Assembly: GCF_003122215.1 (NCBI RefSeq)
Contig: NZ_QEYD01000005.1
Coordinates: 248,001-312,000 of the forward strand
Direction: 5' to 3'
DNA from: Pararhodobacter marinus
GTDB taxonomy: Bacteria > Pseudomonadota > Alphaproteobacteria > Rhodobacterales > Rhodobacteraceae
DNA: 64,000 nt
Both the position numbers and the translations under genes were made by a program. Below the pieces are notes generated by a model. That model saw only the letters and a program-made list of their open reading frames with translations. It ran no database searches and had not been told where the DNA came from. The stretch's first letter is position 1; every line of letters begins with the position of its first letter. Of the stretch, positions 10,081-48,098 are shown in pieces.

Positions 10081-10090
10081 GGGGGAGGCC

Positions 10091-13594: not shown

Positions 13595-13595
13595 C

Positions 13596-16086: not shown

Positions 16087-16090
16087 CCCA

Positions 16091-17306: not shown

Positions 17307-17620
17307 TGTTCGTCCTCATGCGCTGCCTGCACAAACCCGGCGCCGATGCCGAGCGCGACGCGCTACGCCCCACGCACCGTGACTGGAACAAGTCGGGCGG
17401 CGAGGGGCTCGTGTCGGTGATCACCGGCTCGGCGCTCTGGGCCCCGGACGGCACGGCGATCGGCCATTGGGGCATCCTGGAGGCCGAGAGCCTCGACAAG
17501 GCCCGCGCCTATATCGACGGCGATCCCTTCACCCGTTCGGGCATCGTCACCGACATCGAACTGACCCGCATGGCCGACGGTTTCGCCGCCGACCGCATCA
17601 ATCCCCGTATTACCGGCTGA
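17306..17620 (+). CDS. YciI-like small protein
   Basis: 104-residue protein of the YCII-related (dimeric ferredoxin-like) fold: starts MFVLMRCLHKPGADAERDALRPTHRDW, and ends with a region matching the family (ESLDKARAYIDGDPF). The ATG overlaps the ligB stop (ATGA). YciI-like proteins in aromatic operons may act on ring-cleavage intermediates or muconolactone-type products; here the role is unknown. Confidence 0.8.
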   Translation: MFVLMRCLHKPGADAERDALRPTHRDWNKSGGEGLVSVITGSALWAPDGTAIGHWGILEAESLDKARAYIDGDPFTRSGIVTDIELTRMADGFAADRINPRITG

Positions 17621-17633
17621 GGGAGGAGACACC

Positions 17634-32684: not shown

Positions 32685-32722
32685 CCGGGGCCTCCGGCTG
32701 GGGCGCCGGGGCGCCGATTTTT

Positions 32723-32770
32723 GTTCAGTTCGAATTGAACGCAGATAGGTGTGCAGCGACCACGCGTCAA
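32723..32770 (-). promoter_or_regulatory. RND operon promoter with adjoining operator
   Basis: Minus-strand TTGACG (32770-32765), exactly 17 bases, TATCTG (32747-32742), followed at once by the near-perfect dyad GTTCAGTTCGAATTGAAC (32723-32740, 16 of 18 symmetrical). The dyad covers the expected transcription start, a classic repressor site, probably for the divergent GbsR/MarR protein. Confidence 0.65.
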
Positions 32771-32845
32771 GATGCGTTCCGGCTTGAATGCCCCCGCACG
32801 CGGTTTACGATAGCGCCAGTCAAGCCACGGGTCCATGAAAGCCGC

Positions 32846-33316
32846 ATGTCAGACACGATTTCCACCATTCGCAGCGACTTCATAACCCTGATGGGGCAAA
32901 TGGTGGAATCGCACGGGCTGTCGCCGATCTCGGGCCGGATCATGGGTCTTCTGATCTTCGACGGCGAGGCGCGGTCGTTTTCCGATCTGGCGACCGAGCT
33001 GGGCGTGAGCCGGGGCAGCATCAGCGCCAATGCCCGCCTGCTGGTCGCGCGCGGCAGCATCATGAAGGAAAACCGGCCCGGCGACCGGCAGGATTATTTC
33101 CGCATCTCGGACCAGAGCTTCGACGTCATGCTGCAGACCCTGATGCAGCGGATGCTCGACATGTCCGGGCGTGTGCGCGAACTGTCCGACAGACTGCCCG
33201 CGGACGACGCCGAGGGCGACGGCCCGCGCCGGCGCCTGGGCGGGCTGTCGCAATTCTATGCCGCGATGGCGCTGGGCATGCGGCAGGCGCAGGATCACCT
33301 GACCGGCGACGAGTAG
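32846..33316 (+). CDS. GbsR/MarR-family transcriptional regulator
   Basis: 156-residue winged-helix protein: SPISGRIMGLLIFDG, FSDLATELGVSRGSISANARLL as helix-turn-helix, NRPGDRQDYFRIS as wing. The ATG at 32846 gives the usual short N-terminus. Divergent from the RND pump and likely its repressor. The frame is open upstream to 32735 but those residues look non-coding. Confidence 0.82.
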   Translation: MSDTISTIRSDFITLMGQMVESHGLSPISGRIMGLLIFDGEARSFSDLATELGVSRGSISANARLLVARGSIMKENRPGDRQDYFRISDQSFDVMLQTLMQRMLDMSGRVRELSDRLPADDAEGDGPRRRLGGLSQFYAAMALGMRQAQDHLTGDE

Positions 33317-33335: not shown

Positions 33336-34628
33336 TCAGCCCGCCTCGGCGACGGTATCGGCGGGGGCAGGGCGGACCTTCGCCCCCTCGGGCAGTCGGG
33401 CCGGGGCGGCGTTCAGCGCCTCGATGGCAAAACCCGCGGCCTTCTTGTAGCCCGCCATGAACTCGGCCCGCTCGGCCGCCGGAATCACGTCGTCAATGGC
33501 GTCGAATTCGCCGCCACAGCGGTCGTTGACCATGTTCAGAAGCCCGAAAGGCCCGGCTCCCCGGTTGCGCAGGATCAGCGCCGAGACGGGGCCGCAGAAC
33601 GCGGTGTCGAACGCGGCAAGCGCCGCCTCGGTTGCGCCGTGACCGACCATCGCCACGCCCAGCTCGCGCGCATCGACGATCGCCTGCGACGCGCCGTTCG
33701 ACCCGGTCGGGTACATCGCATGCGCCGCGTCGCCCAGCAACAGCACGCGCCCGTCGCGCCAGGTCTCGACCGGGTCGCGGTCGATCATCGGATTTTCATA
33801 GGCGATCTCGGCGCCCCGGATCAGCGCCGGCACGTCCAGCCAGTCATAGGTCCAGCCGTCGAAATGATGGGCGAAATCCTCGATCCCCACCTGCCGGAAC
33901 CAGCCGGTATTCTCGCGCGCCGAGGGGTCGTCATAGGTGACTTCGGCAATCCAGTTGATCGCGGCCAGCCCGTCCGCATCGGGATGCGAGATCGGGTAGA
34001 TCACCATCCTGTGCCGATGCGTGCCCAGCCCCACGAAGCTCGACCCGGTGCGGATGGGCTTCGCGCGGGTCACGCCGCGCCACATCACCGCGCCGCCCCA
34101 GTGGATCGGCGGCTGGTCGGGATGCATCTGCGCGCGGATCGCCGAGTGGATTCCGTCCGCGCCGATCAGCAGGCTGCCGCGTTCCTCGCGCCCGTCGTCC
34201 AGAAGCGCCGTCACGCCGTCCGCATCCTGCCGGTAGCCGGTGATCCGCGCGCCCAGCCGGACGCTGTCGGGACCCAGACGCTCCAGCACCGTGCGGTAAA
34301 GCAGCATGTGGAAATCGCCGCGATGGACGGCGTATTGCGGCCAGTTATAGCCGGCCTCGATCCCGCGCGGTTCGGCGTAGATGTCGTTGCCGTTGAGCCC
34401 CACCAGCGCCCATTCGCGCGCGGGCACGCCCACGCTGTCCAGCGCCTCGGCCCCGAGGCCCAGCTCGTAGAGTTCGCGCACCGCGTTCGGCTGCAGATTG
34501 ATGCCGACGCCCAGCGGTTTGAGGTCACGGACGGATTCGAAGACCGTGCAGGGGACGCCGATCTGGTGCAGGGTCAGGGCCGTGGTCAGCCCGGCGATGC
34601 CGCCGCCGGCAATCAGAACGCGCGTCAT
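33336..34628 (-). CDS. FAD-dependent aromatic monooxygenase (salicylate hydroxylase-like), copy 1
   Basis: 430-residue class A flavoprotein hydroxylase: FAD-binding LIAGGGIAGLTTAL, DG motif LLIGADGIHSAIR, GD motif VLLLGDAAHAMYPTGSNGAS. It would hydroxylate an aromatic or related ring using NAD(P)H and O2. Start at 34628 has GAGAGG upstream. Close paralogue of the next gene; last of the leftward run after the P450s, separated by a 303-base gap, so it may have its own promoter. Confidence 0.86.
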   Translation of the reverse strand: MTRVLIAGGGIAGLTTALTLHQIGVPCTVFESVRDLKPLGVGINLQPNAVRELYELGLGAEALDSVGVPAREWALVGLNGNDIYAEPRGIEAGYNWPQYAVHRGDFHMLLYRTVLERLGPDSVRLGARITGYRQDADGVTALLDDGREERGSLLIGADGIHSAIRAQMHPDQPPIHWGGAVMWRGVTRAKPIRTGSSFVGLGTHRHRMVIYPISHPDADGLAAINWIAEVTYDDPSARENTGWFRQVGIEDFAHHFDGWTYDWLDVPALIRGAEIAYENPMIDRDPVETWRDGRVLLLGDAAHAMYPTGSNGASQAIVDARELGVAMVGHGATEAALAAFDTAFCGPVSALILRNRGAGPFGLLNMVNDRCGGEFDAIDDVIPAAERAEFMAGYKKAAGFAIEALNAAPARLPEGAKVRPAPADTVAEAG

Positions 34629-34931
34629 GGAAAACCTCTCGTGCCTCGACCGTCGCGGGCCTTCTGGCAAACAATCCGCCGCAGGGCAAGCCGCGCGTGC
34701 GGGCGCGCTGCAACAGGCGCGCGCGATTTCGGGGTCGCGTCAGGGATCTGCGCGGCGCGTTCCGGGGGCTGGGTGCGTGCCGAGCGCTGCTCGTTTGGCG
34801 CATGCGCTCCATCGACGTCCTCCCCTTCCGGGCCGCCCGCGCCGGACGCCCAAAGATAGACCGGTGGATGAGGCCCCGCGCGCGAAATGGGCCGTCGGGC
34901 CGCGCCGCGAACCGGGTGCCCGTCAGGCCTG
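34629..34931. other. Intergenic gap of 303 bases with no recognised feature
   Basis: Lies between the two tandem flavin monooxygenases. Very GC-rich; I found no convincing gene, promoter pair or hairpin. Short open frames here look like GC-driven noise. Confidence 0.5.
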
Positions 34932-36197
34932 TCAGGCGACGGCGGCGCGCGCGCCGGGGGCGATGATCGGTGGCGCGTTGTTCAGCATCTCGGCCGCGAA
35001 TTCCGTCGCGCGGGTGTAGCGCAGCATGAAATCCTCGCGCTCGCGCGGGGGGACGACGCTGTCGAGATCCGTGAAGGAGCCGCCGCAGCGCTCGTGCACG
35101 ATGCGCAACAGCTCGAAGCGGCCTTCGACGCGATTGCGCTCGACCAGCGCCGAGACGGGCGCGCAGAGCATGTCGTCATAGGCGTGCAGCGCCGCCGGTG
35201 TCACGCCCGCTTCGATCATGCTGGCGCCCAGCACGCGCGCGTCGATGATCGCCTGCGAGGCCCCGGTCGCGGCGGTCGGATACATCGGATGCGCGGCGTC
35301 GCCCAAGAGAACGACGCGCCCCCGATGCCACGAGCGCAGGGCCGGGCGGTCGACCAGTGGCGTTTCATAGGCATGGGCCGAGGCGGCCATCATCGCGTGC
35401 ACGTCGATCCACAGCTCGCGCCAGCTTTCGAAAAAGGGCAGGATCGCCCGCGTCGGCACCTTGCGCAGCCAGCGGTCCGAGGCGCGCGACGGATGGTCAT
35501 CCACCTGAGCGACCGCGACCCAGTGGATCATCGCCTTGCCGTCGCGGCCGGGATGGGAGATCGGGTAGAACAGGAAATGCCGGTCGGCCATCCCCATGGC
35601 GACATAGCTCGACCCCGTGCGCAGGGGGCGGGCGCGCGTCACACCGCGCCACAGAACCGCCCGGCCCCAGTTGAGCGGGCCTTCGTCGGGAAACATCTGC
35701 GCGCGGATGGTCGAATAAAGCCCGTCCGCCGCGATCAACAGCGCGCCCCTTGCCTGTCGGCCGTTTCCCAGAAACAGCGTGACGCCGTCTGCGTCCTGCT
35801 CGTAGCCGGTGACGGGGCTGTCCATGACAAGGCAGTGATGGCCCAGGCGGCGCTGGGCGGTGCGGTGCAAGAGCGCGTGCAAAAGCCCCCGGTCGACCGA
35901 GAATTGCGGCCAGTGAAAGCCCGCATCCATGCCGCGCCCCTCGGAATAGATGTCGCGCCCGTTCAGGCTGACCAGCGCCCATTCGCGCAGCGGAATCCCG
36001 ACGCTGTTGAGCGCCGCGCCGCCGATCCCCAGCTCGTAGAGTTCGCGCACCGCGTTAGGCTGCAGGTTCATGCCCACCCCGCGCGGCGTCGCGTCGGGGA
36101 AGGTTTCGAACACGGTACAGCGCACGCCGATCTGGTGCAGCGTCAGCGCCGTCACCAGCCCCGCGATGCCGCCTCCTGCGATGAGCACCTCTGACAT
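34932..36197 (-). CDS. FAD-dependent aromatic monooxygenase (salicylate hydroxylase-like), copy 2
   Basis: 421 residues, FAD motif LIAGGGIAGLVTAL, DG motif LLIAADGLYSTIR, GD motif VVLLGDAAHPMYPTAATGAS. Highly similar in layout and many segments to copy 1 (shared NLQPNAVRELYELG, REWALV, WRGVTRA, FYPISHP), so a tandem duplication that has diverged. Its start is 30 bases after the P450 stop, consistent with one operon. Confidence 0.87.
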   Translation of the reverse strand: MSEVLIAGGGIAGLVTALTLHQIGVRCTVFETFPDATPRGVGMNLQPNAVRELYELGIGGAALNSVGIPLREWALVSLNGRDIYSEGRGMDAGFHWPQFSVDRGLLHALLHRTAQRRLGHHCLVMDSPVTGYEQDADGVTLFLGNGRQARGALLIAADGLYSTIRAQMFPDEGPLNWGRAVLWRGVTRARPLRTGSSYVAMGMADRHFLFYPISHPGRDGKAMIHWVAVAQVDDHPSRASDRWLRKVPTRAILPFFESWRELWIDVHAMMAASAHAYETPLVDRPALRSWHRGRVVLLGDAAHPMYPTAATGASQAIIDARVLGASMIEAGVTPAALHAYDDMLCAPVSALVERNRVEGRFELLRIVHERCGGSFTDLDSVVPPREREDFMLRYTRATEFAAEMLNNAPPIIAPGARAAVA

Positions 36198-36204
36198 GTT
36201 CCCT

Positions 36205-36242
36205 CCGGTCGGTCTGACCGGACGCTATCAGCGGGGTGTCAA
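36205..36242 (-). promoter_or_regulatory. Possible internal promoter and inverted repeat
   Basis: CCGGTC, five bases, GACCGG: perfect 6+5+6 inverted repeat at 36205-36221, with a minus-strand TTGACA at 36242-36237 overlapping the end of the P450 gene. No good -10 is visible, so this is tentative. Confidence 0.3.
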
Positions 36243-37406
36243 CACAAGGTGAACGGAGAGCGGCCCGTATTCCGGCCAGCGGGTCATTTCGGGTTCCGCC
36301 GTCAGGGTCAGGCGGGCGGTCTTTTGTGTAAGCTGTTCAAGCGTTTCGGCCAGCAACAGCCGGGCCAGCGGGGCGCCCGGGCACATATGCGGGCCGCGCC
36401 CGAAAGTCACCAGATCCGTTTCGCCCCGGTCCAGCCGGTAGGTATCGGCCTCGGGGAAAACGGCCTCGTCGCGGTTGCCCGAGGTAAAGACCACGGCCAG
36501 CGGGTCGCCCGCCCGGATCGTCTTGCCGCCCAGTTCGACATCGTGGCGCGCGGTGCGCGCGAAGCCGCGATAGGGGGTGTAAAGCCGCAACAGCTCTTCC
36601 AGCGCGACGGGGACCAGATCGGGGCGTTCCGTCAGCTCGGCATGATGCTCGGGATGGCGGGCGAGATGGATCGCCATCGAACCGATGAAGGTGGTGGGCG
36701 CGATGATCCCCACCAGCAGGAATTGCCGCAAGGCGCCCAGGATCTTGTCGTCGGGCAGCGCCTCACCGTCGACCCGGACGGCCAGCAGGTTCGAGACCGG
36801 GTCCTGATCTGGGTCCTGCGGGTTGGCCTTGCGATCCTCGATCAGGCGCGCGGCAATGGCATAGAGCGCGTCCGACCGCTCGCGCAACATGTCGAAATCC
36901 TGCCGTTGCAGCGCCATGTTGAATTCGGCCCCGACGCGGCGGATCTCCTCGGCATCCTTAGGGTTGAGGCGGAAGAACGCGGCCAAGAGCGCGATGGGCA
37001 GAACGAACGAGAAATCCTCGCAGATATCGCCCTTGCCCTGCGCGATGTAGCGGTCGAGATGCTCGGCCACCATCGCGCGCACCATGGGTTTCCAGCCTTC
37101 GATGCGCGCGGGGCTCAGAAAGCGCAGGATCGCGTTGCGATAGGGGATGTTGCCCGGCGGGTCCAGATGCAGCGGCGGGCGGCGCTGGGTGGTGGCGACG
37201 CGGGGGACGACATTCTGCACCGTGGTGGTGAAGGTCTTCCAGTCGGTCAGCACGCGGCAGATATCTTCGTGCTTCGTGACCGCCCAGAAACCGCCCATTT
37301 CCTCGGCCCAGGCGACGGGACAGCGTCCGCGCAGCTCTTTGAACAGGGCGTGGGGGCTGTCGAAATCCTCGGTTTCGGGGACGACGAAATCGGGGTCGTG
37401 GGTCAT
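36228..37406 (-). CDS. Cytochrome P450, copy A (atypical I-helix)
   Basis: 392-residue soluble bacterial P450. Heme-binding loop FGRGPHMCPG with the cysteine ligand, K-helix ELLR within ALEELLRLYTP, and PERF-like region present. The I-helix, however, reads LLVGIIAPTTFIGS: where most P450s have an acid-threonine pair there is Ala-Pro. The start at 37406 overlaps the other P450 (ATGA). No ferredoxin or reductase gene is in this cluster. Confidence 0.9.
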   Translation of the reverse strand: MTHDPDFVVPETEDFDSPHALFKELRGRCPVAWAEEMGGFWAVTKHEDICRVLTDWKTFTTTVQNVVPRVATTQRRPPLHLDPPGNIPYRNAILRFLSPARIEGWKPMVRAMVAEHLDRYIAQGKGDICEDFSFVLPIALLAAFFRLNPKDAEEIRRVGAEFNMALQRQDFDMLRERSDALYAIAARLIEDRKANPQDPDQDPVSNLLAVRVDGEALPDDKILGALRQFLLVGIIAPTTFIGSMAIHLARHPEHHAELTERPDLVPVALEELLRLYTPYRGFARTARHDVELGGKTIRAGDPLAVVFTSGNRDEAVFPEADTYRLDRGETDLVTFGRGPHMCPGAPLARLLLAETLEQLTQKTARLTLTAEPEMTRWPEYGPLSVHLVLTPR

Positions 37407-38578
37407 GTGAAATCCAGTCCCAGCCGGGTCACGCCGTATTCCGTCCAGCGCGCCCATTGCACCGGCTCGCCCAGCCGGAAAGGGGGCAGGGCGGCCAGCG
37501 TGTCGAGCGCGATGCGCGCCTGCAGCTTCGCCACCGACTGGCCGATGCACATATGCGGGCCGATGCCGAAAGCGATGTGACGGTTGGGCGAGCGGGTCTC
37601 GTCAAAGCGCATCGGGTCGTCGAAGACATCCGCGTCGCGATTGGCCGACAGGAAATTCAGCGCGACGGGGCAGCCTTCGGGGATCGCGGTGCCGCGCATC
37701 TCGGTGTCGTGCGTCGCCACCCGTACCAGTGCCTGATTGGGCGCGTAGCAGCGCAGCATTTCCTCGATCAAAAGGCGCTGATCCACCGCGCCTTGCCGCA
37801 GCCGCGCCTGCAGGTCCGGATCCTGCGCCAGATGCCACGCCATCGAGCACAGGAAATTGCGCGGCACGACATGGCCGCCGATCAGCATCAGCCGCACCAT
37901 GCCGGCCAGTTCCTCGAAGGAATAGGGCCCGCCTTCGGGCTCGTGCGCCATCAGGCCGGAAACGATATCGGTTTCGGGATCGCGCGGGTTGGCCATCCGG
38001 TCCTCGACCAGCCTCAGCGCGAAGCCGTCGATCTGCCGGCTGATCCCGCCCGCCGTGGACAGGTCCTGGCGCTGGACGGCGGCGACGTAATCGTGGCCGA
38101 GCTGGCCAAGCTCTTCGGATTCCGACAGGTCCATCCCGGCAAGGATGCACAGCGACCCCACGGTGAAGGGCGCGGCGAAGCCCTCGCCGAATTCGGGCGC
38201 CTCGCTGGTGCGCAACGCCTGCGCCAGATCCTCCGCCAGCGCGCGCAAGGGGGCTTCGATCGCGCGGATGCGGTTTTCCTTGAAGAACAGGTTCAGCCCC
38301 TTGCGGTAGCGCAGCGCCTCGGGCGGGTCTTTCTGCAACGGCAGCCGGGGCAGGCCCGCGCGGGGCGACGTCGGGATGACCGTCTGCCGGGTGGCGGTGA
38401 AGGTTTCGAAATCCTTCGAGGCCTGCACGACGTCGTCGTATTTCGTCAGCGTGTAGAACCCGCCCCAGTTCTGCGACCCGGCGACCGGGCATTGCGCGCG
38501 CAGGCGCGCCAGCTCGGCCTGGGGATCGGCAAGCGTCTGTTCGCCATGCGGGTCCCAGTCGTGGGGAATGGATTTCAT
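37403..38578 (-). CDS. Cytochrome P450, copy B (atypical I-helix)
   Basis: 391-residue P450 with heme loop FGIGPHMCIG and K-helix EMLR (IEEMLRCYAP). The I-helix is LMLIGGHVVPRNFLCS, lacking the conserved acid-alcohol pair (Val-Val/Pro instead). Start at 38578 overlaps the TRAP permease stop by 4 bases, so transport and oxidation are co-expressed. Only moderately similar to copy A, so not a recent duplicate. Confidence 0.9.
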   Translation of the reverse strand: MKSIPHDWDPHGEQTLADPQAELARLRAQCPVAGSQNWGGFYTLTKYDDVVQASKDFETFTATRQTVIPTSPRAGLPRLPLQKDPPEALRYRKGLNLFFKENRIRAIEAPLRALAEDLAQALRTSEAPEFGEGFAAPFTVGSLCILAGMDLSESEELGQLGHDYVAAVQRQDLSTAGGISRQIDGFALRLVEDRMANPRDPETDIVSGLMAHEPEGGPYSFEELAGMVRLMLIGGHVVPRNFLCSMAWHLAQDPDLQARLRQGAVDQRLLIEEMLRCYAPNQALVRVATHDTEMRGTAIPEGCPVALNFLSANRDADVFDDPMRFDETRSPNRHIAFGIGPHMCIGQSVAKLQARIALDTLAALPPFRLGEPVQWARWTEYGVTRLGLDFT

Positions 38579-39855
38579 CGGTCGAAGACCATCGTCGGCA
38601 GCCATAGCGAGACCTCCGGGACATAGGTGACAAGGATCAGGAAGCCGAGCATCGCCGCCACGAAGGGCAGCACGCCACGGATCGCTTCCGAGAGGGGCGC
38701 GCGGGCGATGGACGACAGCACGAAGAGATTGAGCCCGATGGGCGGCGTGAGGAACGCGATCTCCATGTTGACGATCAGCAGGATGCCGAAATGGATCGGG
38801 TCGATGCCAAGGATCGGCAGCAGCGGCAGCACGATGGGCGTGACGATCAAGAGCACCGCGACGGCATCCAGGAACATCCCCATCACCAGCATGATGAGAT
38901 TGAGCGCGATCAGGAACTGCCACGGCTCCAGCCCGGTCGCGGTGGCCCATCGCACGAGATGCGTGGGAATGCCGGATCCGGTGATCCAATGCGCGAACAG
39001 CATCGCGAACATGACGATGAAGGTCACGGCCGAGGCCGCTTTCATCGCTTCGGCGGTCATGCTGAACACGTCTTTCCAACCGACCTCGCGGTAGACCAGC
39101 ACCGCGATCAGCACCGACGAGATCGCCGCCACACCGGCGGATTCCGTTACCGTGGTGATGCCCGAATAGATGCCCACGAAGACCGAGATCGGGATGAACA
39201 GGGCGGGCAGCGCGCGCAGGTTGCGGCGCGTGAATTCCTGCCGCGACAGCCGCTCGCCCGACGCATAGCCGCGCTTTCGCGAGATGATCATCACCACCGT
39301 CGCCAGGATCGCGGCCTGGATCAGCCCCGGCACGACGCCTGCCAGGAACAGGCGCGGCACCGATTCCTCGGCAATGAGGCCGAACAGGATCATCGACAGC
39401 GAGGGCGGGATCAGCATCCCCAGCGTCCCCGAGGCGCCGACCGTGCCGAGCGCGAAGGGCCGGTGATAGCCGCGCGCGACCATGGCGGGGATCAGGAAGG
39501 TGCCCATCGCCATCGCCGTGACCACCGACGAGCCCGAGATCGCCGCGAACAGCGTCGTCGCCAGCACGCAGACCAGCCCCAGCCCGCCGCGGAAATGCCC
39601 GACCCAGGCCTCGGCCGCGTCGATGATGATCCGCGCGATGCCGCCCCGCTGCATGAAGGTCGCGGCCATGACGAAGAACGGCACGGCAAGGAAGGTGGTC
39701 GAGTTGATGCCCGAGACCGAGGTCATCGCGGCATCGAAAAGGGGCCGGCCCTCGAAGGCCAGCATGACCAAAGCGGCGACACCCAGCGCCACGAAAATCG
39801 GCGCCCCCAGCGCCATCAGCGCCAGCATCCCGCCCAGTCCGATTACCGCTTCCAT
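38575..39855 (-). CDS. TRAP transporter large permease (DctM family)
   Basis: 426-residue DctM with GSSVVTAMAMG and GASGTLGMLIPPSLSM. Third TRAP system of the window. Follows the small permease by one base and overlaps the first P450 of the oxidation cassette, implying that the imported compound is the P450 substrate or a precursor. Confidence 0.93.
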   Translation of the reverse strand: MEAVIGLGGMLALMALGAPIFVALGVAALVMLAFEGRPLFDAAMTSVSGINSTTFLAVPFFVMAATFMQRGGIARIIIDAAEAWVGHFRGGLGLVCVLATTLFAAISGSSVVTAMAMGTFLIPAMVARGYHRPFALGTVGASGTLGMLIPPSLSMILFGLIAEESVPRLFLAGVVPGLIQAAILATVVMIISRKRGYASGERLSRQEFTRRNLRALPALFIPISVFVGIYSGITTVTESAGVAAISSVLIAVLVYREVGWKDVFSMTAEAMKAASAVTFIVMFAMLFAHWITGSGIPTHLVRWATATGLEPWQFLIALNLIMLVMGMFLDAVAVLLIVTPIVLPLLPILGIDPIHFGILLIVNMEIAFLTPPIGLNLFVLSSIARAPLSEAIRGVLPFVAAMLGFLILVTYVPEVSLWLPTMVFDR

Positions 39856-39856
39856 G

Positions 39857-40387
39857 TCATTCGGCCTTTTTCGTGAAGTCCGCCGTTTCGGCGGGTTCCG
39901 GGCTGGTCGTGATCCCGCGCCCGGCGAAGGCCAGAAGGATCATCTTCAGCACCATCAGCCCCATGCCCGTGGGCAGGGCCAGGAACAGGAACCATGCCTG
40001 CGGCGTGCGCAGGCTCGAAGCCGAGCGGTCATCGAGCATCCGCGAGAATTCGAACGCCTCCCAGCCCAGCCACGCCATGACGGCGCAGAAAACCAGCGTC
40101 AGCGCGAAGGTGAACACGGCGGCGGCGCGGCGCTTGCGGTCGGACAGGCCTCCGACGATGATCTCGGTATTGATGTGGCGCCCCTCGGCGGCCAGCGTCG
40201 ACCCGGCGATGACCGAGGCCCAGACGATGAAGTAAAGCGCCACCTCGTCGGCCCAGTCGACGGCATGCTGCGGCGTCAGCACCCGCACCGCCGCGCCGCC
40301 CATGAAGGTGAACAGCGCGCAAAGCACGAGAAGGCCGATCAGCACGGTCTCGATCCGGGACCAGATGCGCAGGATCGTGTCGGTCAT
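39857..40387 (-). CDS. TRAP transporter small permease (DctQ family)
   Basis: 176 residues, four hydrophobic helices; starts MTDTILRIWSRIETVLIGLL at 40387 (the frame is open further to 40486 but that part looks non-coding). WADEVALYFIVWASVIAGS is the typical DctQ core. Lies 52 bases after the receptor. Confidence 0.9.
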   Translation of the reverse strand: MTDTILRIWSRIETVLIGLLVLCALFTFMGGAAVRVLTPQHAVDWADEVALYFIVWASVIAGSTLAAEGRHINTEIIVGGLSDRKRRAAAVFTFALTLVFCAVMAWLGWEAFEFSRMLDDRSASSLRTPQAWFLFLALPTGMGLMVLKMILLAFAGRGITTSPEPAETADFTKKAE

Positions 40388-40439
40388 GAATCCGTCCGTT
40401 CCGGGAAGGCGGCGGGGGCAGGGGCCCCCGCGCGCCGGT

Positions 40440-41459
40440 TCATGCGCCTTGCAGCGCCTCGGCCACGCGGGCCACGAAATCGGCATTCATGCCCGAGGCA
40501 TCGACGATATCGTCCTGCACCGCCAGCATCCGCTCGCGCATCTCGCTCACCGCCTCGTCCGAGGGATCGGCATAGGTGATGCCATTCTCCTCGTTGGTCG
40601 CGCGCGCATGGGCCAGTTCCTCGGCCGCGTAGTCGCGCGCCCAGCCCACGGTCTGCGACCAGGCGTCGTCGATGATCTGGCGCTGTTCGTCGGTCAGCCC
40701 GTTCATCACGCGCGCCGACATCAGCGGGATGTAGACGCCCCAGCCGGCATTGTCGTTGAAGGCATGGGCGATGCCCGCCTCCCACAGTCGCCCGCCCGAG
40801 ATGGTCAGATCGGTGACCGAGCCCATCCCCTCGATCTGGCCCTGCGTCAGCTGCAGCACGATCTCGGTCCGGGGCGTGGCAACGCCGTTGATGTTCATCG
40901 CGTTCATGATCGCCACCACGACCGGGCTGGGCGGCGTGGCCAGCGTCCGGCCTTCGAGCGCGGCGTAGCTGTCGGCCGGCTCGACCGTGTAGGCGGTGTT
41001 GTTGGGGGCGAACTCGAAATGCCCGCCCGACGGCACCATGATGCCCCGGCTTTCCAGCATCGCCCACAGCTCGTCGCCCAGATCGCCGTCCAGGATCCCG
41101 CGCACATCCTCGGCGCTGGCGCCGAAGAACATCGGCAGGGTGATGACGCTCAGATTGGGCTCGAGCCGGCTGAGCGTGGGCGAGGCCTGGATCGACAGGT
41201 CCAGCGCGCCCGAGGCCAGCGCCCGGATCGCATCGGCCGAGTTATAGAGCTGCCCCGCCGGGAAGATCTCGACCGCGATGTCGCCGCCCGACAGTTCGCC
41301 GATGGTTTCGGCCCAGCGTTCGGCGGCCAGGTTGCGCACATGGCCCGGCGGGGTTTCCACCGACAGCCGCAGGTTGACGGATTGCGCCGAGACAGCAGTC
41401 GCGGCGGCCATGACCGCGCCGATCAGCGCAGATCCCAGCAAGTTCGTTCTCATTCCCAT
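40440..41459 (-). CDS. TRAP transporter substrate-binding protein (DctP family)
   Basis: 339 residues with signal peptide (MRTNLLGSALIGAVMAAATAVSAQ). DctP core: LEGRTLATPPSPVVVA, LTQGQIEGMGSVTD. AGGAGG lies 7 bases before the ATG at 41459. Starts 24 bases after the CoA-transferase stop, so it belongs to that transcript. Ligand unknown, presumably a carboxylic acid. Confidence 0.92.
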   Translation of the reverse strand: MGMRTNLLGSALIGAVMAAATAVSAQSVNLRLSVETPPGHVRNLAAERWAETIGELSGGDIAVEIFPAGQLYNSADAIRALASGALDLSIQASPTLSRLEPNLSVITLPMFFGASAEDVRGILDGDLGDELWAMLESRGIMVPSGGHFEFAPNNTAYTVEPADSYAALEGRTLATPPSPVVVAIMNAMNINGVATPRTEIVLQLTQGQIEGMGSVTDLTISGGRLWEAGIAHAFNDNAGWGVYIPLMSARVMNGLTDEQRQIIDDAWSQTVGWARDYAAEELAHARATNEENGITYADPSDEAVSEMRERMLAVQDDIVDASGMNADFVARVAEALQGA

Positions 41460-41483
41460 TGGTCTTCCTCCTCCCGTTATTCG

Positions 41484-42626
41484 TCACGATGTCGCATGTC
41501 GTCCCGCGCCCAGTTCCGGCGCCGGACAGGCAATGCCCGGCCCCCCCTCCTTGAACCGGAACCCGGCATTCAGGATACGCTGCCGCCCGCCATGGCGCGC
41601 GGGCAGGTCCAGAAACAGATCGCGCCCGGCCAGATGAGGCATCGCCACCGCATCGGCCAGATCCTGCACCCGCGCCGCAGGGACGCCGCAGGCGCGCAAG
41701 GCGTCTTCCCAATGCGCGGCGGGGCGGGTCTTCAGCACCGCGCCCATCGCTCCGGCCATCGCATCGGCATTCGTGGCCCGTGCCCGGCGGTCGACAAAGC
41801 GCGGATCGTCGAGCAGCGCCTCAAGCCCCAGAACCGCCAGCACCTTTGCCACATGCGCGTCCTCGACCGCGCCGATGGTGATCGCGCTGTTCCCGGCGCA
41901 GGAAAACGTATCCGAGGTCGGCGCGCGGCTGAAGCCCCGGTTGCCCGTGCGTACCGGCGTCTCGCCCGCAATCAGCAGCGGATTGACCACCGACAGCATC
42001 ATCACCAGAGCCGCGTCCAGCATCGCTACGTCGATTTCCTGCCCCGCGCACAACCCGCGCTCGCGTTGCAGCAGGGCGGTCTGGATCGCAAAGGCGGCCA
42101 GCAGGCCGGTGAAAGTATCGACCACCGGAAAGCCCACGCGCATCGCCGGATCCTCGGGCAGGCCCGACAGCGACATCAGGCCCGACAGGCTCTGGATGAT
42201 CTGGTCCATCGCCGCGACATCGGCCAAAGGCCCGGTCTGCCCGAAGCCCGAGATCGCGCACCAGACCAGATGCGGATGGCGCGCGCGCATCTCGGCAGCG
42301 CCCAGGCCCAACCGCGCCATCACGCCGGGGCGGAAATTCTCGACCACCACGTCCGAGGCGGCGATGATCGCTTCGGCCTCGGCGCGGCCCTCGGGTGTCT
42401 TCAGGTCCAAAACCACCGAGCCCTTGCCCGCATTGATCCCGGCAAAGGCGGGCGACAGGCCGCGCTGGGCCGGGTCGAGCGTGTAATTGCGCAGGTTGTC
42501 GCCACGGGGGGATTCGATCTTGGTCACCTCGGCGCCGTTGAGCGCGAGGAAATGCGTGGCCAGCGGTCCGGCCACGACATGGCTGAAATCGGCGACCCTG
42601 ATTCCGGTCAACGCGCGCTGCGTCAT
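41484..42626 (-). CDS. CaiB/BaiF-type (family III) CoA-transferase
   Basis: About 380 residues. Family III features: VADFSHVVAGPLATHFLALNG, GADVTKIE-like GAEVTKIESP, LDLKTPEGRA, VVENFRPGVMARLGLG and the likely catalytic aspartate in FPVVDTFTG. It would move CoA between an acyl-CoA and the acid taken up by the neighbouring TRAP system. The second ATG (42626) is preferred since GGAGG is 6 bases before it and touches the first (42632). Confidence 0.9.
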   Translation of the reverse strand: MTQRALTGIRVADFSHVVAGPLATHFLALNGAEVTKIESPRGDNLRNYTLDPAQRGLSPAFAGINAGKGSVVLDLKTPEGRAEAEAIIAASDVVVENFRPGVMARLGLGAAEMRARHPHLVWCAISGFGQTGPLADVAAMDQIIQSLSGLMSLSGLPEDPAMRVGFPVVDTFTGLLAAFAIQTALLQRERGLCAGQEIDVAMLDAALVMMLSVVNPLLIAGETPVRTGNRGFSRAPTSDTFSCAGNSAITIGAVEDAHVAKVLAVLGLEALLDDPRFVDRRARATNADAMAGAMGAVLKTRPAAHWEDALRACGVPAARVQDLADAVAMPHLAGRDLFLDLPARHGGRQRILNAGFRFKEGGPGIACPAPELGAGRHATS

Positions 42627-42642
42627 CGACATCCTCCCTATG

Positions 42643-42676
42643 GTTCATAGAATGAACTAAATTGGGAGTCTGTCAA
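42643..42676 (-). promoter_or_regulatory. Promoter and MarR-type operator of the CoA-transferase/TRAP/P450 operon
   Basis: Minus-strand TTGACA (42676-42671), an 18-base spacer ending in AATTTAGTTCA, then TTCTAT as -10. Overlapping the -10 is the perfect inverted repeat GTTCAT-AGA-ATGAAC (42643-42657). The -35 lies in the last codons of the upstream dehydratase-like gene. The same arrangement occurs at 44850-44883, so both are probably controlled by the MarR protein at 44928. Confidence 0.72.
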
Positions 42677-43947
42677 CGACCTTTTGCGCGCCGTCCTTCC
42701 GTCACCCGGTCGATTCCGGCCTGAACCCGTGCGCGGGCTTCGGTGCCGTCCCAGCCCCGCGCATCGACCATGTCCGCGTCCAGCATGACCGTCGCCACGC
42801 CCGCTTCCTCGAGCGCCCGCGCGATGAAGCGTGTCCCGTAGCCCGAAGGCCGGTCCGCCGAGGGCACGATGATCACCGCAAGGTCGATGCGGTTCGCCCG
42901 CGCTTCCTTGACATGCCACGCGCCCGCCCAGGGCGGCTGGTGCAGATGCTCGTTGATGTCGCTCACCCGCGCGGCCAGCGCCCGCACCGGGTCGCCGTGA
43001 TCCGCGCGGATATAGCCATCGGCGGCGAAGGGCAGGTACATCGACCAGGCGAAGACCGCGCCCTGGTGCTCGAACGCGGTGTAGAAGCCGGTATCGAACC
43101 ACAGGCCCGCGCCGATCCACATCATGCGCACCCGCTCGTCCGGGCAGACCGCCGCGCCCGAGGCGATCTGCGCGGCCAGTGCGTCGCGGAAGCGTTCGGC
43201 ATGGGCCAGCGCCCAGTCGCTGCCCCGGTGCCATTGCGGGATCATCACGTTGGGGATCATCTCGGAAATCCGCACGGGCAGGCGCGGGGCGTCCGCGATC
43301 ATCCGCGCGCAGTCTTCGAAAATCCGCTCCTGCCGGTCGATCCGCTCCATGAGCTGCGCCAGCGCGCCATCGGGCGTGCGGCGGCCCGCCACCTGTTCGG
43401 CCATCTCGGTCAGTTCAGCGATCTCGCCCGCCATCAGGTCCAGCCGGTCCGCGCCCACCGTGTCCTCCCAGTCGCGGCGCAGCGGCGTCCACCAGTCGGG
43501 CTGAGGGTCCGGATGGCCCGGCGCGCTGAGGATCTTCAGCGGCGCGCCGGTCAGTCGCGCCCATTCGGCAAAGATCAGCGGGTGATCGTCGGCCGAGGCC
43601 CGCGCGCAAAGCAAACCCGGCACGGGCAGGCCGCCCCATGGCTGCGTTTCGGGCCGGCCATCCATCGCGGCGAAAAGCGGCAGGGCGGAATACTTGGCCA
43701 GCCGGGCGTGGAAGCCCATCGCCTCGGATGCGTCCAGATGCAGACCGCTCAGCTTCTTCGCGGCGATGACCGAGGACCACCATTGATTGACCACGACCGG
43801 CATGTCGAGCGCGTGGAACACCTCCATCGGCGTGTCGGCATTGGCAAAGGCATAGGCCTCGCCCCCGGCCAGCCGGGCGCGCAGGCTCTTGGCCCAGTCG
43901 CGCTGATAGGCGGCAGCCTCGGCGGAGCAGGGCAAAGCGGGGGTCAT
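42673..43947 (-). CDS. 2-hydroxyacyl-CoA dehydratase family protein, large subunit-like
   Basis: 424 residues of the HgdB/BcrC/FldBC superfamily. Supporting regions: MEVFHALDMPVVVNQWW, GLHLDASEAMGFHARLAK, GLLCARASADDHPLI and the C-terminal RANRIDLAVIIVPSADRPSGYG followed by FIARALEEAGV. Members normally bind a [4Fe-4S] cluster and act anaerobically. Here one cysteine (GLLCARA) is at a canonical place, but the expected later cysteine sites look substituted (AWSMYLP; PSADRPS). Overlaps the next gene by 4 bases. Substrate unknown. Confidence 0.72.
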   Translation of the reverse strand: MTPALPCSAEAAAYQRDWAKSLRARLAGGEAYAFANADTPMEVFHALDMPVVVNQWWSSVIAAKKLSGLHLDASEAMGFHARLAKYSALPLFAAMDGRPETQPWGGLPVPGLLCARASADDHPLIFAEWARLTGAPLKILSAPGHPDPQPDWWTPLRRDWEDTVGADRLDLMAGEIAELTEMAEQVAGRRTPDGALAQLMERIDRQERIFEDCARMIADAPRLPVRISEMIPNVMIPQWHRGSDWALAHAERFRDALAAQIASGAAVCPDERVRMMWIGAGLWFDTGFYTAFEHQGAVFAWSMYLPFAADGYIRADHGDPVRALAARVSDINEHLHQPPWAGAWHVKEARANRIDLAVIIVPSADRPSGYGTRFIARALEEAGVATVMLDADMVDARGWDGTEARARVQAGIDRVTEGRRAKGR

Positions 43948-44828
43948 GCGGCGGGCTCCGGCAGGGAAGGGGGCAGGTCCGAGGGGGTGGGCCAGCTGGG
44001 CACGAAGCCCAGATCGACGAACGCGACCCCCGCCGCCGCGCAGTCGCGCGCGACCTGCGGCTTGCGCCAGCCATGCAGATCGTCCTGCGGATCGACCTGC
44101 CAGACGAGCGTGTCGATCCGATAGGTTTTCAGAAGATCGGGCAGGGCCCCCTGCGGTGCATCCGGCCCCTGCAGGTCCAGCACCAGCGCCCCCTGCGCAT
44201 CGAGCCAGCGGTGCAGCCCGTCCCCGCCCAAGGGCGCGCCCGCCAGCGCCAGACGCGGCCCGTTGCGTGCCGGTGTTCCCGGGCCGGCATCGACCGTCAA
44301 GCCGCCGGCGCGCGCGGCGAGGCGGCGGGCAAAGGCTTCGGCCCCGGAAATCCGGCCCTCTGCCTGCTTCCGTTGCAACGCGGCCAGCGGGCCCGCCCGG
44401 TCGGCCACCGCGCCGCGCGGCACCCCGGCCAGCGCCCGTGTCAGCCGCGCGACCTGTCTGGCATCGAAGGCCCGCGCCGCCGCGCCGGTGCTGTCGGCCC
44501 GCGACCACAGGAACAGGGGCGGGCCGGCGGGCAACAGGCCGAGCCGCCGGAACTCGGCTGCATAGCGATAGGCATGCAGCGCGCCGGGACCGGCGCGCCA
44601 GATCACGATCGCCGTGGCGTCGTCGAACGCCCCCGCTTCGAGCCCGAACAGGAAGCGGCGCACGAACGGGTCCAGGAACGGCTCGAGCAGCGGCGCAAGG
44701 GCGCTGGGCACAAGCGGCTCATGCGCCACGCGCGTCACGTCTCGCACCGGCAGCCCTGCCAGCGCGGGATGATCCAGCGGCGCATCATGGCCGAACATCA
44801 CGAGAAACGAAGGGGTGGGAACGGGCAA
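43944..44828 (-). CDS. 2-hydroxyacyl-CoA dehydratase family-like protein, small subunit
   Basis: About 294 residues; remote similarity to the second subunit of 2-hydroxyacyl-CoA dehydratases: RLALAGAPLGGDGLHRWLDA and DTLVWQVDPQDDLHGWRKP followed by a Rossmann-like LGF end. Nearly cysteine-free, so it cannot bind its own cluster. The start is uncertain: TTG at 44828 has GGAG 6 bases upstream; TTG 44867 and an internal ATG near 44798 are alternatives. First gene of the leftward run, divergent from the MarR regulator. Confidence 0.6.
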   Translation of the reverse strand: MPVPTPSFLVMFGHDAPLDHPALAGLPVRDVTRVAHEPLVPSALAPLLEPFLDPFVRRFLFGLEAGAFDDATAIVIWRAGPGALHAYRYAAEFRRLGLLPAGPPLFLWSRADSTGAAARAFDARQVARLTRALAGVPRGAVADRAGPLAALQRKQAEGRISGAEAFARRLAARAGGLTVDAGPGTPARNGPRLALAGAPLGGDGLHRWLDAQGALVLDLQGPDAPQGALPDLLKTYRIDTLVWQVDPQDDLHGWRKPQVARDCAAAGVAFVDLGFVPSWPTPSDLPPSLPEPAA

Positions 44829-44849
44829 TCGGGTCTCCGCAGCTATGAA

Positions 44850-44883
44850 GTTAATTTTATGAACCAAATTCGCCCCCCGTCAA
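44850..44883 (-). promoter_or_regulatory. Promoter and MarR-type operator of the dehydratase-like genes
   Basis: Minus-strand TTGACG (44883-44878), an 18-base spacer ending AATTTGGTTCA, then TAAAAT (44859-44854). Over the -10 is GTTCAT-AAA-ATTAAC on the minus strand (44850-44864), one mismatch from perfect symmetry and near-identical to the site at 42643-42657. It also lies in front of the divergent MarR gene, suggesting autoregulation. Confidence 0.72.
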
Positions 44884-44927
44884 ACAGAAGTCTTGCGCCA
44901 CGCGGGGGGCGGGGGCAGATTGTGGCG

Positions 44928-45503
44928 ATGAACAAGGACAGCCTCTCAGCGTCTATCGATCCTGTCCCGACACAGGGCCGCGCGCAGGCCCCGGCGCCGG
45001 GCGACCGGGCGTTTCGCTTCAAGTCCGGCTCGGTGATCCGCGCGGGCTGGCTGGCCGAGGACCTGCCCTTTCTCAATCGCTCGCTGCGCTATCTTCTGCG
45101 CGGTCAGGGCGGCGAGTTGCGGCAGGAATTCGGGCTGGAGAGCGGCGATATCGGCGTGCTGGGCGTGCTGCAATCCAATCCGGGCGTGACCCAGAACGAC
45201 CTTGCGGCCTCGTTGGTACTTAAGAAATCGGCGGTCACGCGGGTCGTTCAGCGGCTGGAGGCGCGCGGCCTTCTGACCCGCGCGCGCAGTCCGCTCGACC
45301 GGCGGGCCAATATCCTGAACCTGACCGAGGCGGGCGCGGATCTGGCGCAGCGGGTGCGCGCGGCGGCGGCGGCGCGCCATGCCGACTGGTTCACCGGGAT
45401 CAGCGCGGAAGAGCGCGCGGTGTTCTTCGACGTGCTGTTCCGGCTGGTGGACCGCCTGGCCGAGACCCATCCCGCCGATCCGGGCGAGGACGACGACGAT
45501 TAG
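44928..45503 (+). CDS. MarR-family transcriptional regulator of the CoA/P450 cluster
   Basis: 191 residues with a longer than usual N-terminal tail (about 45 residues, Pro/Ala-rich) and an acidic C-terminus (DPGEDDDD). Winged helix: TQNDLAASLVLKKSAVTRVVQ and wing SPLDRRANILNLTEAG. Divergent from the dehydratase-like genes, with a MarR-type operator in the 99-base gap. Likely a ligand-released repressor of both promoters in this cluster. Confidence 0.86.
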   Translation: MNKDSLSASIDPVPTQGRAQAPAPGDRAFRFKSGSVIRAGWLAEDLPFLNRSLRYLLRGQGGELRQEFGLESGDIGVLGVLQSNPGVTQNDLAASLVLKKSAVTRVVQRLEARGLLTRARSPLDRRANILNLTEAGADLAQRVRAAAAARHADWFTGISAEERAVFFDVLFRLVDRLAETHPADPGEDDDD

Positions 45504-45524: not shown

Positions 45525-48098
45525 TCAGTCCCGCCGCGGGCCGGGCGGCAATGTCGCCAGACCCTTGGACAGCGATTCGAGGGTGAAGGGCTTGGCGATC
45601 ACCGTCGATTGCGGATACCGCGCCAGCGACCCGTCATTGGACCCGTAGCCGCTGGCCAGGAGGAAAGGCACGTTCTGCGCGGCCAGAACCTGCGCGACCG
45701 GCAAGCTGGTTTCCGCCCCCAGATTGACGTCCAGCACCGCCAGCGACAGCGTATTCGACTCGGCCACGCGCAGCGCCTCGGCGACCGAGCCCGCGATATG
45801 CACGGTCTGCACGCCCAGCGTCTCCAGAATGTCGGCGGCATCCATGGCGATGATCATGTTGTCCTCGACCACCATCGCGACGCCCGACAGCGAGAGCGGC
45901 GCCAGAGCCTGCGCCGGTGCGGCGGCGGCGGGTTCGGGCGTGTCGGGCATGAGGGTGATGAAACGCTCGGGGATCGTGAAGGTCGCCTCGAACCCGGTCA
46001 CCGCGAACCGCGTCTCGGCGGTGCCTTTCAGCTCGAAGGGAATGGAGCGCTCGATGATCGTCGTGCCGAAGCCGCGCCGCTCGGGCGCGCGCACGGCCGG
46101 ACCGCCGGTTTCGGACCAGTGCAGGCGCGTATTGCCGTCGGGCATCGGCGTTATCTCGATCGTCACGCGCCCCGCCGGCACCGACAGCGCGCCGTATTTG
46201 ACCGAGTTCGTCACCAGTTCGTGGAAGACCAGCGCGATGCTGCTGAAGGCTTCGGGCGAGAGCAGGATGCGCGGGCCCAGGACCGAAACGCGGTCGCGTT
46301 CGCTGGCGATATAGGCGTCGAGCTCCTTGTAAAGCAGATCGCGGAAGGCGACCGGCGTCCATTCGGTCCGCGTCAGCTGATCATGGGCCTGCGCCAGCGC
46401 ATGGATGCGGCCGTCGATGGCGGCGGTGAAATCCTCCATCGAGGTGGCGGTGCGGCGCGACTGGCTGACCAGCGACCGGATGAGACCCAGCACGTTGCGT
46501 ACCCGGTGGTTGAGCTCGGCAATCAGCAATTCCTGCTGGTCCTGCGCGCGCTTGCGCTCGGCATTCACCTCGTCCGACAGCTTGAGCACGACTTCGAGCA
46601 GGGTGATGCGGATCGCCTCGGCCGCGCGCAGGGCCGTGACCGACCATTGCTCGGACCGGTTGCCGACATCCTGCTTCCAGGTCTCGAAGCTCTTGCGCGG
46701 GGTCAGGCGCGCCCCGTTCGGGCCCAGCTCGACGGGTTTCTCGGGGTTTCCGGCCCATTTCACCTGCCGGACCACTTCCGATCGGAACAGCACGATGTAA
46801 TCGCGCGGCGTACGCGAGATCGGGATCGCCAGGATCCCCGCCGCGACATCGGCATGCCCGGCCATCGCGGGCAGCCGCGCCGTCAGGTTGTCGGTCGCAT
46901 AGACCCGGCTGGCCGCGGCGGTATTGAGGAACCGCGCAATCCCCTCGAATTGCGACTGCGTGGGCACGGCCCCGCGCGTCAGGTATGTGCCATCGGAATA
47001 AACCGCGATGCCATCGTAATCGACCACCTTGGCGATTTCCTCGGCAATGGTGGGAAAGACCTGTTCCAGCCGCTCGCCCGAGCTGAGCCGCACCATCAGC
47101 CGGTCGTGCAGGCGCTGCGCGCGGCCCGATGCGTCCGACACCGCGCGCGCTTCCTGCCGTTCGATCTCGTAGGCGAAGAACTGCGCCAGAAGCTCGACGG
47201 CGGTGCGGCGCTGGTAATCGATATGGATCGGCTGGCGGTGGTGGCAGGCGAAGAGGCCCCACAATTCGCCCTTTTGCAGGATCGACACCGACATCGACCC
47301 GCGCACATTCATGTTGCGCAGGTATTCCAGGTGGATGGGCGAGACCGCGCGGCTGATCGACATCGACAGGTCCAGCGGCATGCCTTCGGGGCTGAGCTGC
47401 GGCACGATGGGCGAGACGGTGTCGTCGACATCCATGATCAGGCGGATCAGGTTGCGCTTGTACAGCTCGCGCGCCTGGCGCGGAATGTCCGAGGCCGGGA
47501 AATGCAGGCCCAGATAGGATTCGGAATCGGCTTCGTCGCGGGCTTCGGCGATCACCGTGCCGTCGCCCTCGGCGCCGAACCGGTAGACCATCACCCGGTC
47601 GAACCCGGTCAGCCCGCGCAATTGCTCGGCCGCGGCCTGCGCCACGCTTTGCGTATCGGACTGGTTCGATACCTTGCGCAGCATCGCCGAGACCAGCGAC
47701 ATCTCGTCATGGCCCGCCGCGCGCTCGCCCGGTTCGAATTCGAAGATGAAGCTGTTCTGCGTCATGTGGCTGGCGATGTCGAAACGCCGCCCGTCGCCCA
47801 GAAGATCGACGCCGAAAGCCCGCACCACCGAGTTTTCATTCGTGGCCGTGCCGATCATGGCGCTGAGCCTCTGCATCGTGTCGCGCGGCAGGCCGTCGCT
47901 CAGGGGCAGCCCGATCAGGTCGTCGGCGCGCAAGCCAAGCAGCTTGTCCACGTTTTCAGAGGCATGCTGCACGATCCAGTCGGCCGAGATCGCGATCAGG
48001 GCGCCGAAGCTCTGGACGTGACCCAGGATGTGGATCGGTTCGCGGTCGCAATTGGTCAGGTCGACGGGGGTGTCGGTCGAAATGAAGTTGTCCGCCAT
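45525..48098 (-). CDS. bphP: Bacteriophytochrome hybrid histidine kinase (PAS-GAF-PHY-HWE/HisKA2-receiver)
   Basis: 857-residue red/far-red photoreceptor. Cys17 (DLTNCDREPIHILGHVQSFG) is the expected biliverdin attachment site; GAF has PASDIPRQARELYK; the PHY tongue has PRKSFETW. The kinase is of the HWE/HisKA_2 type (ELNHRVRNVLGLIRSL) with an HATPase part (HELVTNSVKYGAL). A C-terminal receiver follows (VVEDNMIIAMDAADIL, phospho-Asp in AVLDVNLG, lysine in VIAKPF). One base separates its ATG from the heme oxygenase stop. Confidence 0.92.
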   Translation of the reverse strand: MADNFISTDTPVDLTNCDREPIHILGHVQSFGALIAISADWIVQHASENVDKLLGLRADDLIGLPLSDGLPRDTMQRLSAMIGTATNENSVVRAFGVDLLGDGRRFDIASHMTQNSFIFEFEPGERAAGHDEMSLVSAMLRKVSNQSDTQSVAQAAAEQLRGLTGFDRVMVYRFGAEGDGTVIAEARDEADSESYLGLHFPASDIPRQARELYKRNLIRLIMDVDDTVSPIVPQLSPEGMPLDLSMSISRAVSPIHLEYLRNMNVRGSMSVSILQKGELWGLFACHHRQPIHIDYQRRTAVELLAQFFAYEIERQEARAVSDASGRAQRLHDRLMVRLSSGERLEQVFPTIAEEIAKVVDYDGIAVYSDGTYLTRGAVPTQSQFEGIARFLNTAAASRVYATDNLTARLPAMAGHADVAAGILAIPISRTPRDYIVLFRSEVVRQVKWAGNPEKPVELGPNGARLTPRKSFETWKQDVGNRSEQWSVTALRAAEAIRITLLEVVLKLSDEVNAERKRAQDQQELLIAELNHRVRNVLGLIRSLVSQSRRTATSMEDFTAAIDGRIHALAQAHDQLTRTEWTPVAFRDLLYKELDAYIASERDRVSVLGPRILLSPEAFSSIALVFHELVTNSVKYGALSVPAGRVTIEITPMPDGNTRLHWSETGGPAVRAPERRGFGTTIIERSIPFELKGTAETRFAVTGFEATFTIPERFITLMPDTPEPAAAAPAQALAPLSLSGVAMVVEDNMIIAMDAADILETLGVQTVHIAGSVAEALRVAESNTLSLAVLDVNLGAETSLPVAQVLAAQNVPFLLASGYGSNDGSLARYPQSTVIAKPFTLESLSKGLATLPPGPRRD

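Follow-up and report, generated by a model that had tools for sequence, protein, structure and literature searches.

We describe here a gene cluster in a stretch of 64,000 nucleotides of Pararhodobacter marinus (the window: contig C26 of genome G000, positions 248001–312000, in a genome of 4.49 Mb) that encodes two proteins, D1 and D2, related to the subunits of benzoyl-CoA reductases and 2-hydroxyacyl-CoA dehydratases (the BCR/HAD superfamily), together with a CoA-transferase, a TRAP transporter and oxygenases. Known members of this superfamily are Fe-S radical enzymes of anoxic metabolism. Every gene listed in an earlier prediction made from the sequence alone (the original prediction) was recovered in its place by gene calling and by Pfam and NCBIfam profiles. 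On the reverse strand, D1 (43944–44801, starting at an ATG at 44798 or a GTG at 44801) and D2 (42673–43947) are followed by the CoA-transferase CaiB (41484–42632), by DctP (40440–41459), DctQ (39857–40387, its start taken from gene calling) and DctM (38575–39855), by two cytochromes P450, P450b (37403–38578) and P450a (36228–37406), and by two flavin monooxygenases, FMO2 (34932–36197) and FMO1 (33336–34628); a gene for a MarR-family regulator (44922–45503, starting at a GTG at 44922 or an ATG at 44928; Pfam MarR_2, 3.2e-16) diverges from D1 on the forward strand. The TRAP set is complete: receptor (Pfam DctP, 4e-33), small permease (DctQ, 5.1e-19) and large permease (DctM, 4.1e-108). The linkage by overlapping stop and start codons that had been proposed holds at D1/D2, DctM/P450b and P450b/P450a (four bases each), and a single base separates DctQ from DctM, but FMO1 stands about 300 bases from FMO2. 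The genes from D1 to P450a probably form one operon.

D2 is matched directly by Pfam HGD-D (2.6e-30) and in profile searches matches MbdO (5.6e-22), BzdO (9.1e-22) and HadB (2.2e-16). All 20 Foldseek matches to its AlphaFold model (pLDDT 92.8) at E≤0.001 belong to the BCR/HAD superfamily, with MbdO at the top (TM 0.84). The D1 of the window, searched on its own, has no HGD-D match in Pfam; its link to the family comes from a profile built on its relatives, which matches BzdN (1e-6), and from its AF2 model (pLDDT 94.4), the top Foldseek match of which is again BzdN (3.5e-9, TM 0.63). By profile and by predicted fold, both proteins are members of the superfamily, folded like the subunits of benzoyl-CoA reductases and 2-hydroxyacyl-CoA dehydratases. 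To that extent the "dehydratase-like pair" of the original prediction stands; ordinary 2-hydroxyacyl-CoA dehydratases they are not, given that the Fe-S ligands are gone and that no activase was found.

Relatives of D2 were sought in 60 relatives, in 394 genomes of the family (at E≤0.001) and in a scan of named genomes, from which the best 80 of 166 relatives were kept. This gave 89 loci that were gene-called and clustered, 88 of them with a D2 of alignable length (hereafter rows); two rows, L021 and L044, are one record, and both are counted among the 88, with L021 left out of the tree described below. BzdO binds its active-site [4Fe-4S] cluster through Cys95, Cys128 and Cys380, while Tyr97, Tyr298 and Gln274 hold the thioester oxygen (PMC11971306). 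The three cysteines correspond to A84, A119 and D365 in the D2 of the window and the thioester contacts to Y86, Y304 and A280: all three cluster ligands are replaced, both tyrosines are kept and the glutamine is not. Across the rows, each thioester position is Tyr in 88 of 88. The ligand positions divide the same rows into two sets: 45 lack Cys at both the first and the second position and in every case have Asp at the third, whereas in the other 43 the first two are Cys and the third is never Asp. The ligands thus appear to have changed in concert while the contacts to the CoA ester stayed. In D1, the test covered three of the ligand positions of the partner subunit BzdN: none is Cys in the window, and only one Cys occurs among 255 cells (85 sequences by three positions, three cells being gaps), taking the partners of both D2 groups together.

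The cysteine-free D2s, nearly all of them from genomes named as Rhodobacterales or Hyphomicrobiales, form a single group (support 97/93) in a tree of the rows with one canonical outgroup, the cysteine columns themselves being kept in the alignment. Because the outgroup branch is very long, the root and the direction of the cysteine change are unsure. The 43 sister D2s (for example L040, L086 and L099) carry C-x2-C and C-x-C, which gives them two of the three canonical ligands and, in nearly all, two extra cysteines; the third canonical Cys is present in just 3 of the 43, and their D1 has practically no Cys. These sister D2s may carry a metal or cluster site.

Radical BCR/HAD enzymes of this type depend on an activating ATPase, for which a profile search with TIGR00241 gave no match in the P. 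marinus genome. Among 26 D2-bearing genomes, 21 have no match at E≤0.01 and 3, Mesobacterium pallidum being one of them, have one over the cut-off. Of four PF01869 matches in the P. marinus genome only one exceeds its cut-off, and by eye this is sugar-kinase-like and lies beside a MurQ-like gene. Since the Fe-S ligands are gone and no activase was found, D1-D2 should not work as the known radical enzymes do – which is the likely answer to the puzzle of anaerobic-type enzymes encoded beside oxygenases: the radical reactions known from the family would be closed to this pair. Mesobacterium pallidum (G194; L128, L137) has a canonical, Cys-bearing pair with its activase on one contig and a cysteine-free D1-D2 on another, and so offers a natural comparison of the two within one strain.

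D2 was found in 5 of the 60 relatives and in 15 of the 394 family genomes, 14 of these at E≤4.1e-100; the fifteenth, G315 (best match 1.9e-6), was removed from the D2-positive set before counting. Among the best 80 of 166 named relatives, D2 is most similar to that of Rhodobacter sp. NTK016B (96% identical), followed by Pararhodobacter zhoushanensis and Pararhodobacter sp. CCB-MM2. Viral contigs gave no D2 match, and seven plasmid records match, each at less than 60% identity. The order seen in the window – D1-D2-CaiB-DctP-DctQ-DctM-P450-P450, which we call type I – is identical in 12 of the 88 rows (11 distinct loci) from several genera, with MarR upstream in 11 of the 12. This conservation is far beyond chance, and the expectation that the genes would be kept together in relatives is confirmed. 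A second arrangement (type II; 25 rows, Rhodobacterales and Hyphomicrobiales) combines D1-D2 with three CaiB paralogues and another DctPQM, and has a divergent fourth CaiB in 25 of 25 rows. The third arrangement, seen in 21 rows from Sphingomonadales and others, has DctP after D2 and, before it, a CaiB that in most cases is about 700 residues long, often accompanied by CapA and TonB receptors; in Acidobacteria and others D1-D2 occurs with CaiB and an MFS-type neighbor. A gene of the CapA/PGA_cap family recurs near D2 (L086:11245–12378 and L091:13848–14969, for example) and is present in 35 of the 89 loci.

Both P450s (Pfam p450, 1.5e-15 for P450a and 2e-22 for P450b) have the haem-ligand Cys and the ExxR motif. 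The usual P450 I-helix carries an acid-alcohol pair. By eye, neither protein shows the standard pair: P450a reads VGIIAPTT, here and in every type I orthologue displayed, and lacks the usual acid (it is one residue shorter, and its Thr could be shifted), while P450b reads IGGHVVPRN in the window and either this or VGGHIASRC in type I orthologues. P450s with a G-x-x-A-P motif also occur at other D2 loci, namely in 6 of the 25 type II rows and in L040, L098 and L112. When six type I loci were screened with a simple motif test, no ferredoxin gene came up.

The P450s are inherited together with D2. With presence set at E≤1e-60, no more than four top candidates scored per genome and counts uncorrected for kinship, P450a occurs in 8 of the 394 family genomes and P450b in the same 8, all of them D2-positive. 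Eight genomes therefore have both D2 and the P450s, 6 have D2 only, none has the P450s only and 380 have neither (p=2e-13). Leaving out the own genus gives 6, 6, 0 and 380 (p=2e-10), all 6 P450-bearing genomes again being D2-positive; counting G315 as D2-positive, the result is still 8 of 8 (p=4.8e-13). In three of the eight genomes the P450s are not next to D2, and in at least two of these they are far from it. G202 has a separate operon of MarR and DctP-DctQ-DctM-P450b-P450a on a different contig from D2, both contigs being large; in G138, about 69 kb separate MarR and DctP-DctQ-DctM-P450b from D2, and P450a sits on a contig of its own; and the fragmented draft of G200 spreads DctP-DctQ-DctM-P450b, P450a and D2 over three contigs, with no MarR adjoining. 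Physical linkage alone would not explain why modules that can be separated are inherited together.

A shared palindrome, GTTCA-N5-TGAAC, gives a further tie. It occurs at 42643–42657, in the gap between D2 and CaiB (10 of 10 positions), and at 44850–44864, between MarR and D1 (9 of 10). These are the only two sites of at least 9/10 in the window, where five base shuffles give an expectation of 0.4; sites of 8/10 or better number 15, with 9.6 expected. Scanned from 200 bases before to 60 bases after the D1 start, sites of at least 9/10 are present in 12 of 12 type I rows and at 14 of 30 type II D1s (11 further ones having an 8/10 variant), and in the other two D1 groups at 1 of 27 and 0 of 17. 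The palindrome also precedes DctP in all five of the separate TRAP-P450 operons that were inspected: in three that lie away from D2 (L139, L140 and L142, matching 10, 9 and 8 of 10 positions) and in two beside a type II D1-D2 (L048 and L061, both 10). An extended exact form occurs once in the 4.49 Mb of the P. marinus genome, at the D2-CaiB gap, with no occurrence of its reversed control. It was found in 9 of 14 further D2-bearing genomes, where, once overlapping forward and reverse matches are merged, 11 of 17 distinct places are at D1-D2 or TRAP-P450 loci and 6 are elsewhere. With a winged-helix regulator and a conserved palindrome at the divergent promoter, the set looks like a dedicated local regulon, with the palindrome as its putative operator. 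The best-scoring NCBIfam model for the regulator is Saro_0803-like, Saro_0803 being a MarR protein that controls the stilbene oxygenase gene nov1 (PMC10046596); the score is 60 bits, under the cut-off of 200 and too low to call the regulator an orthologue of Saro_0803. The idea that import, CoA transfer and oxygenases act as one unit is upheld by gene order, by phyletic co-occurrence and by the shared palindrome, except that the flavin monooxygenases look accessory.

CaiB has the full class III CoA-transferase domain (PF02515; Pfam CoA_transf_3, 2.4e-106) and an Asp in the column that we take to be catalytic; in this it resembles the CaiB/Frc enzymes, but curated NCBIfam cut-offs are not reached. 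Elsewhere, the CaiB that adjoins D2 in L040, L041, L099 and similar loci is double the normal size, at about 700 residues, and in CaiB family 3 the Asp is replaced by Gly in 28 of 52 sequences. Sequence matches of DctP point to no clear ligand. The two monooxygenases are PhzS-like: both match NCBIfam PRK07538 (585 bits for FMO1 and 464 for FMO2, cut-off 400), and the best PDB match is 2rgj (4.8e-82 for FMO1) or 3c96, which we take to be PhzS. They differ from PhzS in their setting, behind the P450s and in few relatives (the window, L044, L045 and L023; they are absent from that place in L090 and L022), and look like additions made in few lineages; they could serve to hydroxylate an aromatic product and perhaps to decarboxylate it as well. 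L107 and L121 also have genes of the FMO family.

Other parts of the window deserve mention. A second aromatic-catabolism region (159–18527) contains LigM, a LigA/LigB-type extradiol dioxygenase, a MetF-like protein, a CoA ligase (PRK12582), a crotonase (PRK08150), an acyl-CoA dehydrogenase, a MarR and, by eye in the gene calls, two TRAP-like gene sets; the product of the D1-D2 operon may be processed further in this region. LigM and LigA/LigB lie between 10.9 and 17.3 kb. LigM (10978–12390; 624 bits, cut-off 580) is a vanillate/3-O-methylgallate O-demethylase. It occurs in 52 of the 394 family genomes – 12 of the 14 D2-positive ones vs. 40 of the other 380 (p=6e-10; again with at most four candidates scored per genome and no correction for kinship) – and this enrichment, as an association, points to D2 hosts as users of methoxylated aromatics. 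Hydroxycinnamate-type genes adjoin D2 in L040 (from annotation) and in L085 (by eye from the start of the translation, with VanA by Pfam). The ferulate route through hydroxycinnamoyl-CoA hydratase-lyase that these neighbors suggest is not supported for this genome, the enzyme not being found in the P. marinus genome with the L085 protein as query (E≤1e-90). Beside MarR lie a bacteriophytochrome with HWE kinase and response-regulator domains (45525–48098), a homologue of which is near the operon in L021 and L022, and a small gene (48100–48681) that by eye we would guess to be a haem oxygenase. Just beyond the monooxygenases are an RND pump, an HlyD-type adaptor and a second MarR (28384–33316); L021 and L023, both of the same genus, have this block next to the operon too.

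From this material we infer a catabolic regulon under MarR control that serves a carboxylic acid taken up from outside, and in which D1-D2 would carry out a non-radical step on a CoA ester; we hold this to be about evenly balanced between right and wrong. It would comprise two co-inherited modules, D1-D2-CaiB and DctPQM-P450b-P450a, adjacent here and apart in some other genera. The TRAP transporter would import the acid; the two P450s would oxidize it by a non-standard route of proton delivery; and CaiB would add CoA, before or after the P450 step. D2, with D1, would then accommodate the CoA ester in what was the benzoyl-CoA/hydroxyacyl-CoA pocket, there to catalyze an oxygen-compatible reaction, whether elimination, hydration, isomerization or cleavage. 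The acid or its CoA ester would release MarR from the GTTCA-N5-TGAAC sites, and within the genus Pararhodobacter the two PhzS-like hydroxylases may act later. The hosts presumably live aerobically, judging by their oxygenase genes. On the basis of the LigM association a lignin-type aromatic acid is the favored substrate; of the "aromatic or terpenoid" acid first proposed, the aromatic alternative gains by this association, and a terpenoid or steroid acid is the less probable one.

Several observations weigh against this regulon. Six of the 14 D2-positive family genomes lack P450a and P450b at the cut-off used, so that some D1-D2 pairs must do without them, and in type II each of the 25 rows has four CaiB paralogues, whereas such a P450 is found at the locus in just 6. 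The LigM association may reflect a shared lifestyle, and the hydratase-lyase query from L085 matches only 1 of 295 family genomes (G087, which is not D2-positive), with the top 8 candidates per genome scored. Because C-x2-C and C-x-C are kept in 43 of the 88 rows, part of the family may bind a metal or cluster. The exact extended palindrome is missing from 5 of the 14 other D2-bearing genomes, and 12 genomes without D2 give 8 exact places in 6 genomes, which puts the chance level at about one in two genomes.

The nature of the D1-D2 step admits other accounts. The pair may bind a non-redox metal (Zn, Fe(II) or Mg, for example) where the cluster used to be, through the largely acidic residues D120, D121, H122 and D365 of D2, and dehydrate, by Lewis-acid catalysis, a 2-hydroxyacyl-CoA made by CaiB. 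This is the logic of FldABC/HadABC without radicals, it overlaps the proposal above as one form of non-radical step, and we think it rather unlikely. The third ligand site is Asp in 45 of 45 cysteine-free D2s vs. 0 of 43 Cys-bearing ones, the D2 position after the second ligand site (D120) is Asp in 87 of 88 rows and Glu in the other, and the third tested position of D1 is acidic in 84 of 85 sequences (a gap in one); a CaiB beside an HGD-D pair is also the layout of FldABC and HadABC. H122, however, is His in just 36 of 88 rows. The loss of the catalytic ligands with retention of the thioester-binding tyrosines would also suit a pseudo-enzyme – a non-catalytic carrier of CoA esters or a regulatory scaffold for CaiB and the P450s – as would the fast divergence of D1 (35% mean column identity); but D2 has 63 invariant columns among 42 sequences drawn from several phyla, a degree of conservation that a mere scaffold hardly seems to call for, and this account is in our judgment improbable. 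So is a steroid- or terpenoid-type acid in place of an aromatic one: in the PDB both P450a and P450b match CYP125-type enzymes best, and P450b matches CYP142-type ones too, but these matches are distant ones among 397 and 391 P450 chains, and D2 genomes are enriched in LigM. The Pfam name of D2 would suggest an ordinary ATP-activated 2-hydroxyacyl-CoA dehydratase working under low oxygen with an activase encoded elsewhere. We rejected this, and give it hardly any probability, on account of the lost cluster ligands, the lack of a TIGR00241 match and the sugar-kinase-like character of the one PF01869 match over its cut-off.

The gene set can be compared with known systems. With the class I benzoyl-CoA reductases BzdNO and MbdNO, D1-D2 shares the fold, the two-subunit layout and the position of the thioester-binding Tyr97/Tyr298, but here the cluster cysteines are replaced, no activator was found and the context is one of P450s and a TRAP transporter. 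With HadABC and FldABC it shares the class III CoA-transferase beside the HGD-D pair, but the [4Fe-4S] ligands are missing, no HadI/FldI-type activase was found, and a TRAP transporter and P450s are added. Among the titles and abstracts listed in the literature searches made, none describes the D1-D2 pair or the gene set or a characterized relative, in agreement with the original prediction, to which no described pathway of this kind was known; the term "dehydratase" occurs in neither PMC12442348 nor PMC11705938.

It is possible, though somewhat short of an even chance, that D1-D2 stands for a new class of oxygen-tolerant acyl-CoA enzymes that evolved from the BCR/HAD radical family by loss of the Fe-S site, within an undescribed pathway that has two P450s without the usual proton-delivery pair and one dedicated MarR operator. 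A cluster-free BCR/HAD branch, with dozens of alphaproteobacterial genomes found here to encode it near oxygenases or transporters, would show the scaffold of this family turned to other chemistry, and in such bacteria the annotation "2-hydroxyacyl-CoA dehydratase" may mislead. The constant association with the two atypical P450s and the nearly genome-unique palindrome, in turn, give a handle on the substrate: it would be whatever releases MarR.

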